64,000 nucleotides of DNA from Streptomyces sp. MJM8645 (GTDB taxonomy: Bacteria; Actinomycetota; Actinomycetes; Streptomycetales; Streptomycetaceae), in the NCBI RefSeq assembly GCF_001625365.1, contig NZ_LJJF01000001.1:248001-312000 (forward strand), written 5' to 3'. Both the position numbers and the translations under genes were made by a program. The notes under the pieces are model-generated. The model did not search any database. It was not told the DNA's origin and worked only from the letters and a program-made list of their open reading frames with translations. Positions 7,659-10,664 of this stretch are shown here, piece by piece (positions within the stretch are counted from its first letter, which is position 1; each line of letters starts with the position of its first letter).

Positions 7659-8351
7659 TCAGCCCGGCAGCGGCGCCAGCGGCCTGGTCCGGTAGGCGTC
7701 GGAGGAGCCCGGGGGGACGAGGCAGGGCAGCAGCCACTCCCACAGGGCGCCGACCCGGCGGGCGCGCTCCTCACCCGGGCAGCCGTCGCCGAAGACGACC
7801 TCCAGCCCGCAGGCGGCCGCCACCACCAGGGTCTCCGGGCCGGGATCGCCCGAGCGGTCGCGCAGCTCGCCGGCGCGCCGGGCACCGGTCAGCAACTCCC
7901 GGACGACACCGGCCCAGACACCGTGGAAGCCCCGCACGCCCGCGACCGGCACGCCCGCGACCGGCGCGCCGGGGGCGGACGTGACGGGAGCGAACGCGGC
8001 GGTCCTCGACTGCCAGCCGCCCTCCCGGCCGAGGCGGAACGCCGCCCGGACCACCGCGTCCGACCCCAGGGCGTCGACCAGCCAGTAGCCCACGTCGATC
8101 AGCGTCTGCAGGGGGGAGGAGGTGGCCCGCAGACCGCCGCAGGCGCCCCGCAGCGAGCGCTCGGCCCGCTGGAACACCGCCTGCGCCAGCTCCTCCTTGG
8201 ACGCGAAGTGGAAGTAGAGCGCACCCTTCGTCACTCCTGCGGCACCGGCGATCTCGCCGAGCGTGGCCCCCGCATAGCCGCAGCGGTCGAACAGCACCGC
8301 CCCCGCCTGCACCAGCCGTCCGCGTGTCCGTTCCGACCTCTCCTGCACCAC
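7659..8351 (-). CDS. TetR regulator, gamma-butyrolactone receptor family
   Basis: A TetR-type repressor of about 230 residues. The N-terminal helix-turn-helix GVTKGALYFHFASKEELAQAV is the signature of the ArpA/ScbR family that senses gamma-butyrolactone signals. The C-terminal ligand domain ends LWEWLLP, also a family feature, but is otherwise more divergent than the second receptor at 9715, so it may be a pseudo-receptor binding a different ligand. Several in-frame GTG codons precede the conserved region; the GTG at 8351 (VVQERSERTR) is taken because an AGGGG lies about ten bases upstream. It follows the SARP gene on the same strand and may be co-transcribed with it. Confidence 0.85.
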   Translation of the reverse strand: MVQERSERTRGRLVQAGAVLFDRCGYAGATLGEIAGAAGVTKGALYFHFASKEELAQAVFQRAERSLRGACGGLRATSSPLQTLIDVGYWLVDALGSDAVVRAAFRLGREGGWQSRTAAFAPVTSAPGAPVAGVPVAGVRGFHGVWAGVVRELLTGARRAGELRDRSGDPGPETLVVAAACGLEVVFGDGCPGEERARRVGALWEWLLPCLVPPGSSDAYRTRPLAPLPG

Positions 8352-8435
8352 CCGACCCACACCCCTCACAACGACGAGCACGTTCCGACCACACACGAGC
8401 AGCGCCCCGGCAGCGACGGCGCCTTCCGCCCGTCC

Positions 8436-9293
8436 TCAGCCGACCCGGGTGAACCGGGCCACCGACGCCTCCGGCGAAGCGGTCGCGGCCGCCTCGCGCT
8501 CCGAACGCTCCGGGCGCTCCGGGCCGGCCAGCAGGATGGAGCGCTGGAGCCGTCGCAGTCCGGTGGACGGCTCCATGCCCAACTCCCTTACCAGGGTGTT
8601 GCGCAGGCGCTGGTAGGCCTCCAGGGCCTCGCCCCGCCGGCCGGAGCGGTGCAGGGCGATCATGTACTGGCCGTGCAGGCTCTCGTGGGTGCGGTAGCGG
8701 TCGACCAGGACGGTGAGTTCGGCGAGCAGGACGCGGTGGCGGCCCAACCGCAGGTCGGCCTCGATCCGCTGGTCCAGGGCGCAGAGCCGGGTCTCCTCCA
8801 ACCGCTTGGCCTCGACGGCGAGTTGACCGCCGGCCGGGACGTCGGCGAAGGCCGGACCGCGCCACAGGCCGAGCGCCTCGCCGAGCATCCGGGCGGCCAG
8901 CGGGTGGTCGTCGCCGTCCATGGCCCGGTAGCCCATGCCGGCCAGGCGCTCGAACTCCCGGACGTCCGTCAACCCGCCGCCGCTGTTCAGCATGTAGCCG
9001 CCCGGCGAGGTCACCAGCACGTCCTTGGCGCAGGAGACCCCTGCCGCCGGGCCGACCTGCCCGAGCGCCCGGTCGATCATGTCGCGCAGCTGCAGCACGT
9101 ACGTCTGCACCGTCGTGCGTGCGCTGCGCGGCGGGCGGCCCGACCACAGCTCCTCGGCCAGCACCCCGGCCGACACCACCTGGTCGGCCCGCAGGGCCAG
9201 CAGCCCCAGCACCTGACGCGGCTTCGGCGCCGATGGCACCACCGACACCCCGCACACCCGGACGTCCAACGCCCCGAGCACCCTAATTTCCAC
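8436..9293 (-). CDS. SARP-family transcriptional activator
   Basis: A 285-residue SARP (Streptomyces antibiotic regulatory protein). It opens with the winged-helix OmpR-like DNA-binding domain (VEIRVLGALDV, about residues 1-95) followed by the BTAD domain (about 100-250; FERLAGMGYRAM... ALEAYQRLRNTLVRELGMEPS). This size and two-domain layout match pathway-specific activators such as ActII-ORF4 and RedD rather than the long AfsR type. SARPs bind direct repeats and recruit RNA polymerase to antibiotic genes. The GTG at 9293 is the start giving the standard family N-terminus. ARE-like palindromes in the upstream region suggest repression by a butyrolactone receptor. Its targets are probably outside the window. 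Confidence 0.92.
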   Translation of the reverse strand: MEIRVLGALDVRVCGVSVVPSAPKPRQVLGLLALRADQVVSAGVLAEELWSGRPPRSARTTVQTYVLQLRDMIDRALGQVGPAAGVSCAKDVLVTSPGGYMLNSGGGLTDVREFERLAGMGYRAMDGDDHPLAARMLGEALGLWRGPAFADVPAGGQLAVEAKRLEETRLCALDQRIEADLRLGRHRVLLAELTVLVDRYRTHESLHGQYMIALHRSGRRGEALEAYQRLRNTLVRELGMEPSTGLRRLQRSILLAGPERPERSEREAAATASPEASVARFTRVG

Positions 9294-9383
9294 GATGACC
9301 ACCCCAATCACACGGAACGCCGCAGGCCGATCCGCCGCGGCTGGCACCCGGGTCGACACCCCTAGGGCGACTGTCACCAGTCA

Positions 9384-9404
9384 AAAACAGGACGCGCGGT
9401 TTGT
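9384..9404. promoter_or_regulatory. ARE-like site 1 upstream of SARP
   Basis: The sequence AAAACAGGACGCGCGGTTTG with the next T forms an imperfect palindrome of the AAAC...GTTT type bound by gamma-butyrolactone receptors. It overlaps a minus-strand TTGACA (9402-9407) that could be the SARP promoter -35 box. Confidence 0.5.
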
Positions 9405-9407
9405 CAA
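9402..9407 (-). promoter_or_regulatory. Candidate -35 box of SARP promoter
   Basis: On the minus strand these bases read TTGACA, a consensus -35 hexamer, about 110 bases upstream of the SARP start and wedged between the two ARE-like sites. I see no convincing -10 box at the usual spacing, so the promoter call is tentative. Confidence 0.35.
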
Positions 9408-9410
9408 TCC

Positions 9411-9430
9411 AAAACCGAACGTGCTGTTTG
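9411..9430. promoter_or_regulatory. ARE-like site 2 upstream of SARP
   Basis: AAAACCGAAC / GTGCTGTTTG is a 20-base imperfect palindrome (about 7 of 10 half-site positions match). Its left half AAAACCGAACG is identical to the left half of the perfect site at 10647, which supports both being targets of the same receptor. Confidence 0.55.
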
Positions 9431-9507
9431 TTTCTTGGGATGAGCGGCCTGCCTCGGACAGACGGGCGCGGCGGCCACGCTGCGCCACGAACCGGCCACC
9501 ACGCGCA

Positions 9508-9583
9508 GCGGAGTGCGGGCAAACCGAAGGCGGCGTCGGACCCCCATGGATCCCGCGCCGCCACCAATTCGCCCGCACTCCGC
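9508..9583. other. Two-step hairpin, 76 bases
   Basis: Outer arms of 13 bases (GCGGAGTGCGGGC at 9508-9520, its exact complement at 9571-9583) enclose inner arms of 7 bases (GGCGGCG 9529-9535, CGCCGCC 9556-9562), separated by a symmetric 8x8 internal loop and a 20-base terminal loop. It could be the terminator of the receptor gene at 9715 or a structured leader/small RNA. The left internal loop contains AAACCGAA, the ARE half-site core. Confidence 0.55.
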
Positions 9584-9714
9584 GCCCGCCGCCAGCCGGC
9601 CGATCACCGCCCGGAAACCGCCCGGACGCCCCCGGACGCCCCCGCGAGCAGGGGGTCGCCGAGCCCCGGTCAACTCCGCACCAGCCGCAGCGATTTCCGG
9701 CCGGTGCCGGACCG

Positions 9715-10434
9715 TCAGCCCACACCGACCTCGTCCGCGACCGCCCGGGCCGCCGACCGCGCCCCGTCCTGCGCCCCGGCGCCCTCCGTCGCCGCGCGGG
9801 CGGCCGCCACCTCGGCGACCACCTGGGCACCGCGGTCCGGGCCCATCTGCAGCGAACCGAGCACACCCGGCACCGCGATGCTCGGCATCAGGTGCTGGAA
9901 CAGCCCGGCGGCCCGCCGCTCCAAGTCCGCACGCCCGGAGAGCTTCTGCGACTGGATCTGCACACCCGTCCACGCCGCCGTGACCAGCCACGCGGTGTCG
10001 GCCGGGACGACGTGCGGCAGCAGTTCGCCCCGCTCGCCGGCCGCGACCAGCAGCGCCTCCAGCCGGCTGATCCAGCCGGGGATCGCGCCGCCGCCGAGGT
10101 CGTCGAAGACGTCCTGCCCCAGGGAGAGCCGGGCCCCCGCGCTCAGCAGCGGATCACGCGGCATCAGATAGGCCACCACCATCCCGGTGTCCACGAACTC
10201 CTGGAGTTTGCAGACCCGTTCCGGCACACCGTCCTGGACGAACTGCTCCTCGACGACGCCCTGGGCCAGATCCCGCTTGGAGGCGAAATGGAAATACACC
10301 GCACCACGCGTCACACCGGCCCGCGCGACCACCTCGCCGATGGTGGCGCCCTCGTAGCCGAACTCGTCGAAGACCGACGCCGCCGCCTCCAGGATCAGCC
10401 GACGCGTCCGGACCGCCCGCTCCTGCCGAACCAC
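9715..10434 (-). CDS. TetR regulator, gamma-butyrolactone receptor (ArpA/ScbR-like)
   Basis: A repressor of about 239 residues that looks like a bona fide butyrolactone receptor. The N-terminus RQERAVRTRRLILEAAASVF and helix-turn-helix GVTRGAVYFHFASKRDLA are followed by the typical ligand-domain end TGVQIQSQKLSGRADLERR and LFQHLMPSI. The C-terminus has an extra Ala-rich tail. The frame is open far upstream, but the conserved family start is at the GTG pair 10443/10434; 10434 is used. A perfect ARE-like palindrome lies about 210 bases upstream, suggesting autoregulation. No AfsA-type butyrolactone synthase gene is in the window. Confidence 0.9.
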   Translation of the reverse strand: MVRQERAVRTRRLILEAAASVFDEFGYEGATIGEVVARAGVTRGAVYFHFASKRDLAQGVVEEQFVQDGVPERVCKLQEFVDTGMVVAYLMPRDPLLSAGARLSLGQDVFDDLGGGAIPGWISRLEALLVAAGERGELLPHVVPADTAWLVTAAWTGVQIQSQKLSGRADLERRAAGLFQHLMPSIAVPGVLGSLQMGPDRGAQVVAEVAAARAATEGAGAQDGARSAARAVADEVGVG

Positions 10435-10646
10435 CGCAACCACCCCACCCAGAGCTCCCGGAAAACAAAACCAAACACCCCGTATCTTAGCTACCGGTGG
10501 CCTACGGACGACAAGATGATGTCGGGGAATCGCCTCAAACGCTCCTTCCCTCCCGCCCGCATCCTCCGCATTTCGCCTACGGGCCGCTGCTTCTTCGCCG
10601 GACGATCGAAAGCGGCACCGGCGCCACACATCACACATTCGGGGAA

Positions 10647-10664
10647 AAACCGAACGATCGGTTT
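10647..10664. promoter_or_regulatory. Perfect ARE-like palindrome
   Basis: Arms AAACCGA (10647-10653) and TCGGTTT (10658-10664) are perfectly complementary around ACGA, matching the form of butyrolactone-receptor operators. It lies between the Rid gene stop (10696) and the receptor gene start (10434), in a 261-base A/T-richer intergenic region that otherwise shows no gene. Confidence 0.65.

Follow-up and report, generated by a model that had tools for sequence, protein, structure and literature searches.

A synthase-less receptor and SARP locus of Streptomyces sp. MJM8645 as the probable satellite half of an old duplicated gamma-butyrolactone switch

The locus studied here, a gamma-butyrolactone-type receptor gene (Rec1), a Streptomyces antibiotic regulatory protein (SARP) gene and a pseudo-receptor-like TetR gene (TetR2), lies in a 64,000-nt stretch of the Streptomyces sp. 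MJM8645 genome (the window, C1:248001-312000, that is C1:248-312 kb, of five contigs and 9.23 Mb) and resembles several described switches. In the srrX/srrA/srrB/srrC/srrY set of S. rochei (lankacidin/lankamycin), as described in PMC7296167, the receptor represses the SARP gene at its promoter and the TetR gene srrC is cotranscribed behind it; there, however, srrX, srrA and srrY lie on one plasmid, whereas here no synthase gene is found at the locus and a twin set lies elsewhere. In S. filipinensis, the near-neutral receptor SfbR and the basic pseudo-receptor SfbR2 share their target sites and regulate a SARP gene, but within one cluster with its own synthase, SfbA (PMC7480387). The SpbR/PapR3/PapR5 region of S. 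pristinaespiralis shares with the window a receptor without an identifiable afsA-like gene; in contrast, it borders its own antibiotic cluster, the P450 SnbU is the proposed effector enzyme and the account given in PMC7554373 describes no AfsA-bearing twin. The alp receptor/pseudo-receptor/SARP set of S. ambofaciens (AlpZ/AlpW/AlpV) is present twice per genome, but its two copies, which lie in terminal inverted repeats and are each accompanied by a gene cluster, are identical (PMC7343708), whereas the two sets reported here are 82-86% identical, diverged long ago and differ in gene content. Systems of this kind are known, and SpbR (PMC7554373) already provides an example of a receptor region lacking a synthase gene; it is the split and duplicated organisation that is new as far as the literature searched shows, and we claim novelty no further. 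We consider it likely that the region in the window is the synthase-less satellite half of an old duplicated gamma-butyrolactone switch, and that it answers the signal of a distant AfsA locus.

As a preliminary description of the window had stated, no butyrolactone synthase is encoded in it, and a search of the genome for afsA, which that description had proposed, revealed three AfsA loci, at C1:33.7 kb, 4373 kb and 7270 kb. The arrangement of a complete switch, with AfsA next to the receptor, is absent from the window but present in a paralogous locus at C1:7.27 Mb, where AfsA is divergent from the receptor gene and a SARP gene follows; this AfsA-bearing twin accounts for the missing synthase. 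Six receptors in the genome exceed the 150-bit cut-off of the family model NCBIfam NF041196 ('ScbR family autoregulator-binding'). Rec1 and the sister receptor at 7.27 Mb share 85.6% identity (202 residues), the window SARP and the sister SARP (C1:7272 kb) 81.6% (293 residues), whereas identity to Rec1 drops to 37-39% in three other receptors, among them those next to the AfsA genes at 33 kb and 4373 kb. The block shared by both loci and recognisable by blastn consists of the receptor promoter, the receptor, the SARP promoter and the SARP; the window copy has TetR2 and lacks AfsA, whereas the sister copy has AfsA and lacks TetR2.

Relatives of Rec1 at E 1e-20 or better occur in 60 of the 70 genomes of the genus that formed the comparative set (this genome being G000), and the closest named relative by Rec1 match is Kitasatospora sp. 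MAA19. The loci examined comprise those of 20 genomes with the satellite locus and an annotated record, L066, giving 21 satellite loci; at least one of RidA, NlpC, ligA2 and PrmC lies near Rec1 in all of them but L133, within the stretch shown. Of the satellite receptors, 15 group in a single clade of the receptor tree (97/94), and the sister-type receptors in another, of nine members (92/93), seven of which are adjoined by AfsA (not those of G065 and G033). The remaining six satellite receptors, from G060, L066 and four genomes further removed, fall in neither clade and arise at a fork that the tree does not resolve. The two receptor clades show that the duplication of the switch is old. A recent duplication is accordingly not supported, nor is one by way of terminal inverted repeats, as the first and last 20 kb of C1, whose ends may not be chromosome ends, have no DNA match at E 1e-10. 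The other members of the TetR2 group (100/99) each follow a SARP in a locus with AfsA, in G009, in G061 and on the linear Streptomyces plasmids NBC_00048 and NBC_00536; thus, the linkage of a SARP-TetR pair to AfsA and a receptor is probably ancestral, with gene order varying between such loci. The plasmid units (AfsA-P450-receptor-SARP-TetR) have the same SARP-TetR tandem, and both proteins stand beside those of the window in the trees, but AfsA is in place, an extra gene separates receptor and SARP, and the NBC_00048 unit adjoins polyketide genes.

Ten of the 21 satellite loci include TetR2, and Rec1, SARP and TetR2 occur all together in 6 genomes. The satellite SARP is found in all six genomes with an AfsA-bearing partner locus and in one (G033) of the 14 without (20 genomes; Fisher p 1.8e-4), counts in which fragmented assemblies may hide genes. 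L066, for which only its own record was searched (no AfsA there), was left out; counted in, the figures become 1 of 15 and p 1.3e-4. In that record (NZ_CP108290, Kitasatospora sp. NBC_00039) the whole Rec1 neighbourhood belongs to a linear replicon of 853 kb that is labelled a plasmid in its annotation, and SARP and TetR2 are absent. In G058 (C1:20-60 kb; L101/L102), the Rec1 block occurs twice in opposite orientation with identical Rec1 copies, either a local inverted duplication or an assembly artefact.

The two loci are also singled out by their operators, which were sought with the 18-nt autoregulatory element (ARE) consensus AAACVGNNBVNNCSGTTT, as given for S. filipinensis in PMC7480387. 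Exact matches occur at five sites in the 9.23 Mb, three in the window and two at C1:7272086 and 7272113, all in the two paralogous loci. With up to one mismatch there are, among the matches listed, 39 strand matches genome-wide against 4 for the reversed control; one single-mismatch site, at C1:4374051, is intergenic and precedes another AfsA gene. Within the window, AREs with up to two mismatches number 12 against 4.6 expected, a moderate excess reached by 3 of 100 shuffles. Each SARP promoter of both loci has two AREs flanking a TTGACA motif (Table 1), and in the window ARE2 lies directly downstream of this motif in the SARP sense. The double operator is kept in all 14 SARP promoters compared (7 satellite, 7 AfsA-linked), where the flanking DNA has drifted, and all 28 single AREs are exact. 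At up to three mismatches, the double pattern was found at 15 sites in 9 of the 70 genomes and never in the control. Fourteen of these sites are the SARP promoters of both sets; the fifteenth lies directly before TetR2, with no SARP between, in G046 (L141:123-874, G046:C342), as would be expected if SARP and TetR2 had shared a promoter. The genome-wide confinement, the zero control matches of the double pattern and its conservation in 14 of 14 promoters rule out a chance origin of the AREs.

The receptor promoter has its own box, for which the genome holds only two sites at up to three mismatches, one before each receptor; at this threshold it is found in 20 of the 21 satellite and all nine sister-clade receptor promoters. 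An ARE with at most one mismatch lies upstream of the receptor in 14 of the 21 satellite loci. The AfsA box has a single genome site at up to three mismatches. The preliminary description had listed three ARE-like palindromes sharing AAACCGA halves. The halves are indeed at all three sites (9412, 9521 and 10647/10658), and two of the palindromes, 9412-9429 and 10647-10664, match the consensus exactly, but the one at 9521 has no match at up to two mismatches and is a half-site. Even so, a box around 9521 can be recognised by eye in six of seven aligned satellite SARP upstream regions (not in L135). AAACCGA occurs five times in the window, once at 3592, against 1.53 expected, and 2 of 100 shuffles reach five. 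The exact ARE at 9385-9402 and the receptor-promoter box at 10463-10488 had been missed. In L130 (G018), from a genome that lacks SARP and TetR2, an exact ARE lies before ligA2, either at the 3' end of Rec1 or immediately past it, 703 bases from where the Rec1 match begins; it could be an orphan operator or have been captured by the DNA ligase gene.

The three genes proposed earlier at 9715, 8436 and 7659 are real genes by family models, domains and conservation, their starts being judged by sequence and conservation. Rec1, called a typical receptor beforehand, scores 201.7 bits with NF041196, has an acidic predicted isoelectric point (pI 5.18) and falls on the true-receptor side of the tree. 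Its closest solved relative by sequence is AvaR1 of S. avermitilis (E 7.3e-53), whose lactone-contact residues Gln64, Thr162 and Gln165 and conserved Trp127 (AvaR1 numbering; roles as given in PMC7347384) are all retained. Rec1 is thus a gamma-butyrolactone-type receptor, predicted to bind AREs and to be released by a lactone. However, the S. avermitilis cluster has aco in place of afsA (PMC7480387), and at 7 of the 11 positions compared as avenolide contacts (64, 85, 88, 108, 127, 130, 131, 158, 161, 162 and 165; PMC7347384) Rec1 differs from AvaR1, Thr108, Thr131, Val158 and Phe161 among them being replaced by Ser, Leu, Thr and Trp; AvaR1 positions 103-107 were excluded because their numbering does not match that source. 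With the alkyl-chain residues Val158 and Phe161, and also Thr108, replaced in Rec1 and likewise in the sister receptor, neither matches an AvaR1-like butenolide receptor at these positions; Trp161 is also present in several AfsA-linked relatives. In contrast, Rec1 and its sister are identical at all 11 pocket positions, which supports a shared ligand, though not an avenolide-like one. In the eight genomes with such a pair the DNA-binding domains of the two receptors are 88-95% identical, and in six same-genome pairs the SARPs are 82.6-86.9% identical. The dN/dS ratio of Rec1 is 0.05-0.18 over 25 pairs (0.05-0.18 over 15 pairs with the partner, 0.07-0.17 over 10 without). In L132 (G065), where a sister-type receptor has no adjoining AfsA, Arg replaces Gln64 in the lactone pocket, as if this receptor were drifting toward a pseudo-receptor.

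TetR2 also belongs to the receptor family (158.5 bits), but is only 30% identical to Rec1, and its closest solved relative is CprB (E 7.3e-20). Its predicted pI is basic, 8.99 against 5.18 for Rec1, and it has Ala64, Cys162 and Glu165 in place of Gln64, Thr162 and Gln165, Trp127 being kept. In the tree it falls on the pseudo-receptor side (split 99/96), a branch that we named from the second-receptor position of its members, the basic R2_4374 (pI 10.09) and the residues, as the tree holds few named references and no named pseudo-receptor. Both the basic pI and the conservation of Trp127 agree with how PMC7480387 characterises pseudo-receptors, though exceptions to the pI rule are given there as well. 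Four AfsA-linked sequences from the receptor side of the tree (L105, L106, L107 and L114) also have Ala64, so loss of this contact alone does not prove a pseudo-receptor. Taken together, the family model, the tree split, the two pI values and the contacts gone from TetR2 support the preliminary description of a receptor/SARP switch with a pseudo-receptor-like TetR. TetR2 is probably the second cistron of the SARP transcript; a consensus scan of 7600-11200 found no terminator-like site and no sigma-70-like promoter at the locus, so that operon structure and promoter placement are inferred. In position, TetR2 resembles srrC behind srrY, SrrC being compared by description (PMC7296167), at least as much as it does a classic antibiotic-sensing pseudo-receptor. 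The non-coding block conserved before TetR2 (Table 1) is a possible feedback site; as an ARE it is ruled out, there being no consensus match at up to two mismatches.

The window SARP, too, is what it was said to be, with Pfam BTAD (3.2e-43) and Trans_reg_C domains, the OmpR-type winged helix-turn-helix and BTAD that define the class. Its target cluster was sought in 20 scanned of the 53 called window proteins and in seven flanking or sister-locus proteins, and none was assigned; nor does any ARE with zero or one mismatch occur elsewhere in the window, outside the Rec1/SARP/TetR2 locus. A non-ribosomal peptide synthetase cluster at C1:7280 kb begins about 7 kb from the sister SARP and is the first candidate target. 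Seven of the nine sister-clade receptors have a relative of one of its genes no more than 11 kb away; since 32 of the 70 genomes have such a relative (E 1e-60), many of them without the switch, this cluster is only a candidate. An in-frame TTA codon is present once in the sister SARP (L064:14229-15110) and not in the window SARP (8436-9295). TTA codons tie translation to the bldA tRNA, and dependence on it may be limited to one SARP copy.

If the locus is the satellite of the 7.27-Mb switch, one signal probably controls two distant loci, the common operators and pockets suggesting action in trans between them. Early on, Rec1 and the sister receptor would occupy the receptor boxes and double AREs, with Rec1 bound both at the promoter of its own gene and at the ARE pair around the SARP promoter, and both SARPs and TetR2 would be kept off. 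The lactone, most likely made by the 7.27-Mb AfsA, would then accumulate and release both receptors at both loci; both SARPs and TetR2 would be made, one signal firing two SARPs. Later, TetR2, without lactone contacts, might close the SARP operators as a late off-switch or serve a second output. Both the early and the late step follow the example of S. rochei, in which srrY is a target first of SrrA and afterwards of SrrB and is cotranscribed with srrC (PMC7296167). We also propose, tentatively and as something rather more apt to fail than to hold, that a quorum switch was split by duplication and complementary loss, leaving the synthase at one locus and the TetR2 off-switch at the other. Common operators would let the loci act in trans and so rebuild the ancestral circuit of four genes (AfsA, receptor, SARP and TetR), whereas genomes without the synthase locus would keep Rec1 as a 'solo' receptor of signals not made with a cognate enzyme.

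Several observations weigh against a satellite answering the 7.27-Mb signal. The co-occurrence of SARP and partner amounts to three parsimony changes of the partner and four of SARP, and yields 1 to 3 independent pairs, too few for an independent-pairs test to reach significance; moreover, G033 retains the SARP without an AfsA partner. Rec1 and its sister share only 4 of 11 letters with AvaR1, so the pocket comparison does not fix the ligand class, and the seven other same-genome pairs differ at 1-4 of the 11 positions. The ligand domains are only 70-84% identical in the eight same-genome pairs, and in five genomes without partner AfsA, SARP and TetR2, Rec1 is under purifying selection (dN/dS 0.07-0.17) and must have another use or signal there. 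The last point keeps alive an alternative in which Rec1 answers a different signal, either what the AfsA at 33 kb or 4373 kb makes or a lactone from another strain, as an independent, eavesdropping switch with common ancestry and DNA sites. The faster divergence of the ligand domain than of the DNA-binding domain would fit such a receptor, as would the fact that position 131 differs in all seven other pairs and position 158 in six. We nevertheless regard it as unlikely for Rec1, because all 11 pocket positions agree in this genome, because near-identical operators mean that the two receptors would still meet at each other's sites, and because the receptors that accompany the AfsA genes at 33 kb and 4373 kb have so little identity to Rec1.

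The preliminary description had instead envisaged that the switch is local, with TetR2 responding to the antibiotic from a cluster under this SARP. Pseudo-receptors can bind antibiotics (PMC7480387), and TetR2 groups on their side without the lactone contacts. However, a local regulon accords poorly with the lack of exact or one-mismatch AREs in the rest of the window, TetR2 is placed like srrC behind srrY, and in S. rochei none of the antibiotics tested elicited a response from the pseudo-receptor SrrB (PMC7296167); such a role for TetR2 therefore seems quite improbable. That the locus is a functionless, decaying remnant of the duplication, as the patchy distribution of SARP and TetR2 and the persistence of AREs without SARP in some relatives might suggest, is scarcely credible in view of the low dN/dS of Rec1 over all 25 pairs, the operators kept over 14 promoters and the co-retention of all three genes in 6 genomes.

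Read as a satellite of the 7.27-Mb locus, the region would show how a hormone circuit can be spread over two distant loci with a synthase-less receptor kept, a Gram-positive counterpart of the 'solo' quorum receptors. This reading predicts a closed regulon of two receptors, two SARPs and one synthase. For genome mining it suggests that a missing synthase be sought elsewhere in the genome and that both receptors, not one, be removed to wake silent clusters in Kitasatospora.

Table 1. Features of the receptor/SARP locus and its conserved neighbours (window coordinates)
Feature	Position	Strand	Remarks
Rec1, gamma-butyrolactone-type receptor (ScbR/AvaR1 family)	9715..10434	-	GTG start at 10434 or 10443
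SARP activator, OmpR-type DNA-binding domain and BTAD	8436..9295	-	start by conservation
TetR2, pseudo-receptor-like TetR directly behind SARP	7659..8351	-	open frame extends to 8396
ARE1, SARP promoter (AAACAGCACGTTCGGTTT)	9412..9429	-	exact consensus match; kept in 14/14 SARP promoters
ARE2, SARP promoter	9385..9402	+	exact on + strand, 1 mismatch on -; kept in 14/14
TTGACA, -35-like, between ARE1 and ARE2	9402..9407	-	kept in 14/14; putative promoter role
Proximal box, Rec1 promoter (AAGATACGGGGTGTTTGGTTTTGTTT)	10463..10488	-	2 mismatches to consensus
Distal ARE between RidA and Rec1 (AAACCGAACGATCGGTTT)	10647..10664	both	exact consensus match
AAACCGA half-site, third 'palindrome' of the preliminary description	9521..9527	+	not a full ARE
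Conserved non-coding block before TetR2	8366..8392 (approximate)	-	alignment of 6 loci
RidA-family gene, conserved neighbour anchoring the locus	10696..11112	-	Pfam; synteny
ligA2, second NAD+-dependent DNA ligase, conserved neighbour on the other side	3894..5972	-	named ligA in L066; synteny

Other genes of the window lie outside the switch. The conserved neighbourhood includes a short threonyl-tRNA synthetase-like gene (431 aa; 12965-14260), a relative of which is thrS in L066; it presumably lacks the N-terminal editing part. A large AfsR-like SARP (BTAD, NB-ARC, TPR) at 29008-31782 stands beside GMC oxidoreductase and luciferase-like genes. The gene run at 36395-57748 resembles a phage-tail-like contractile injection system, its translations being judged by eye. 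Across the left edge of the window (L058:17462-19408 and window 184-2722), a B12-binding radical SAM protein, a cytochrome P450 and an MFS exporter are encoded close together, and possibly form a small biosynthetic cluster.

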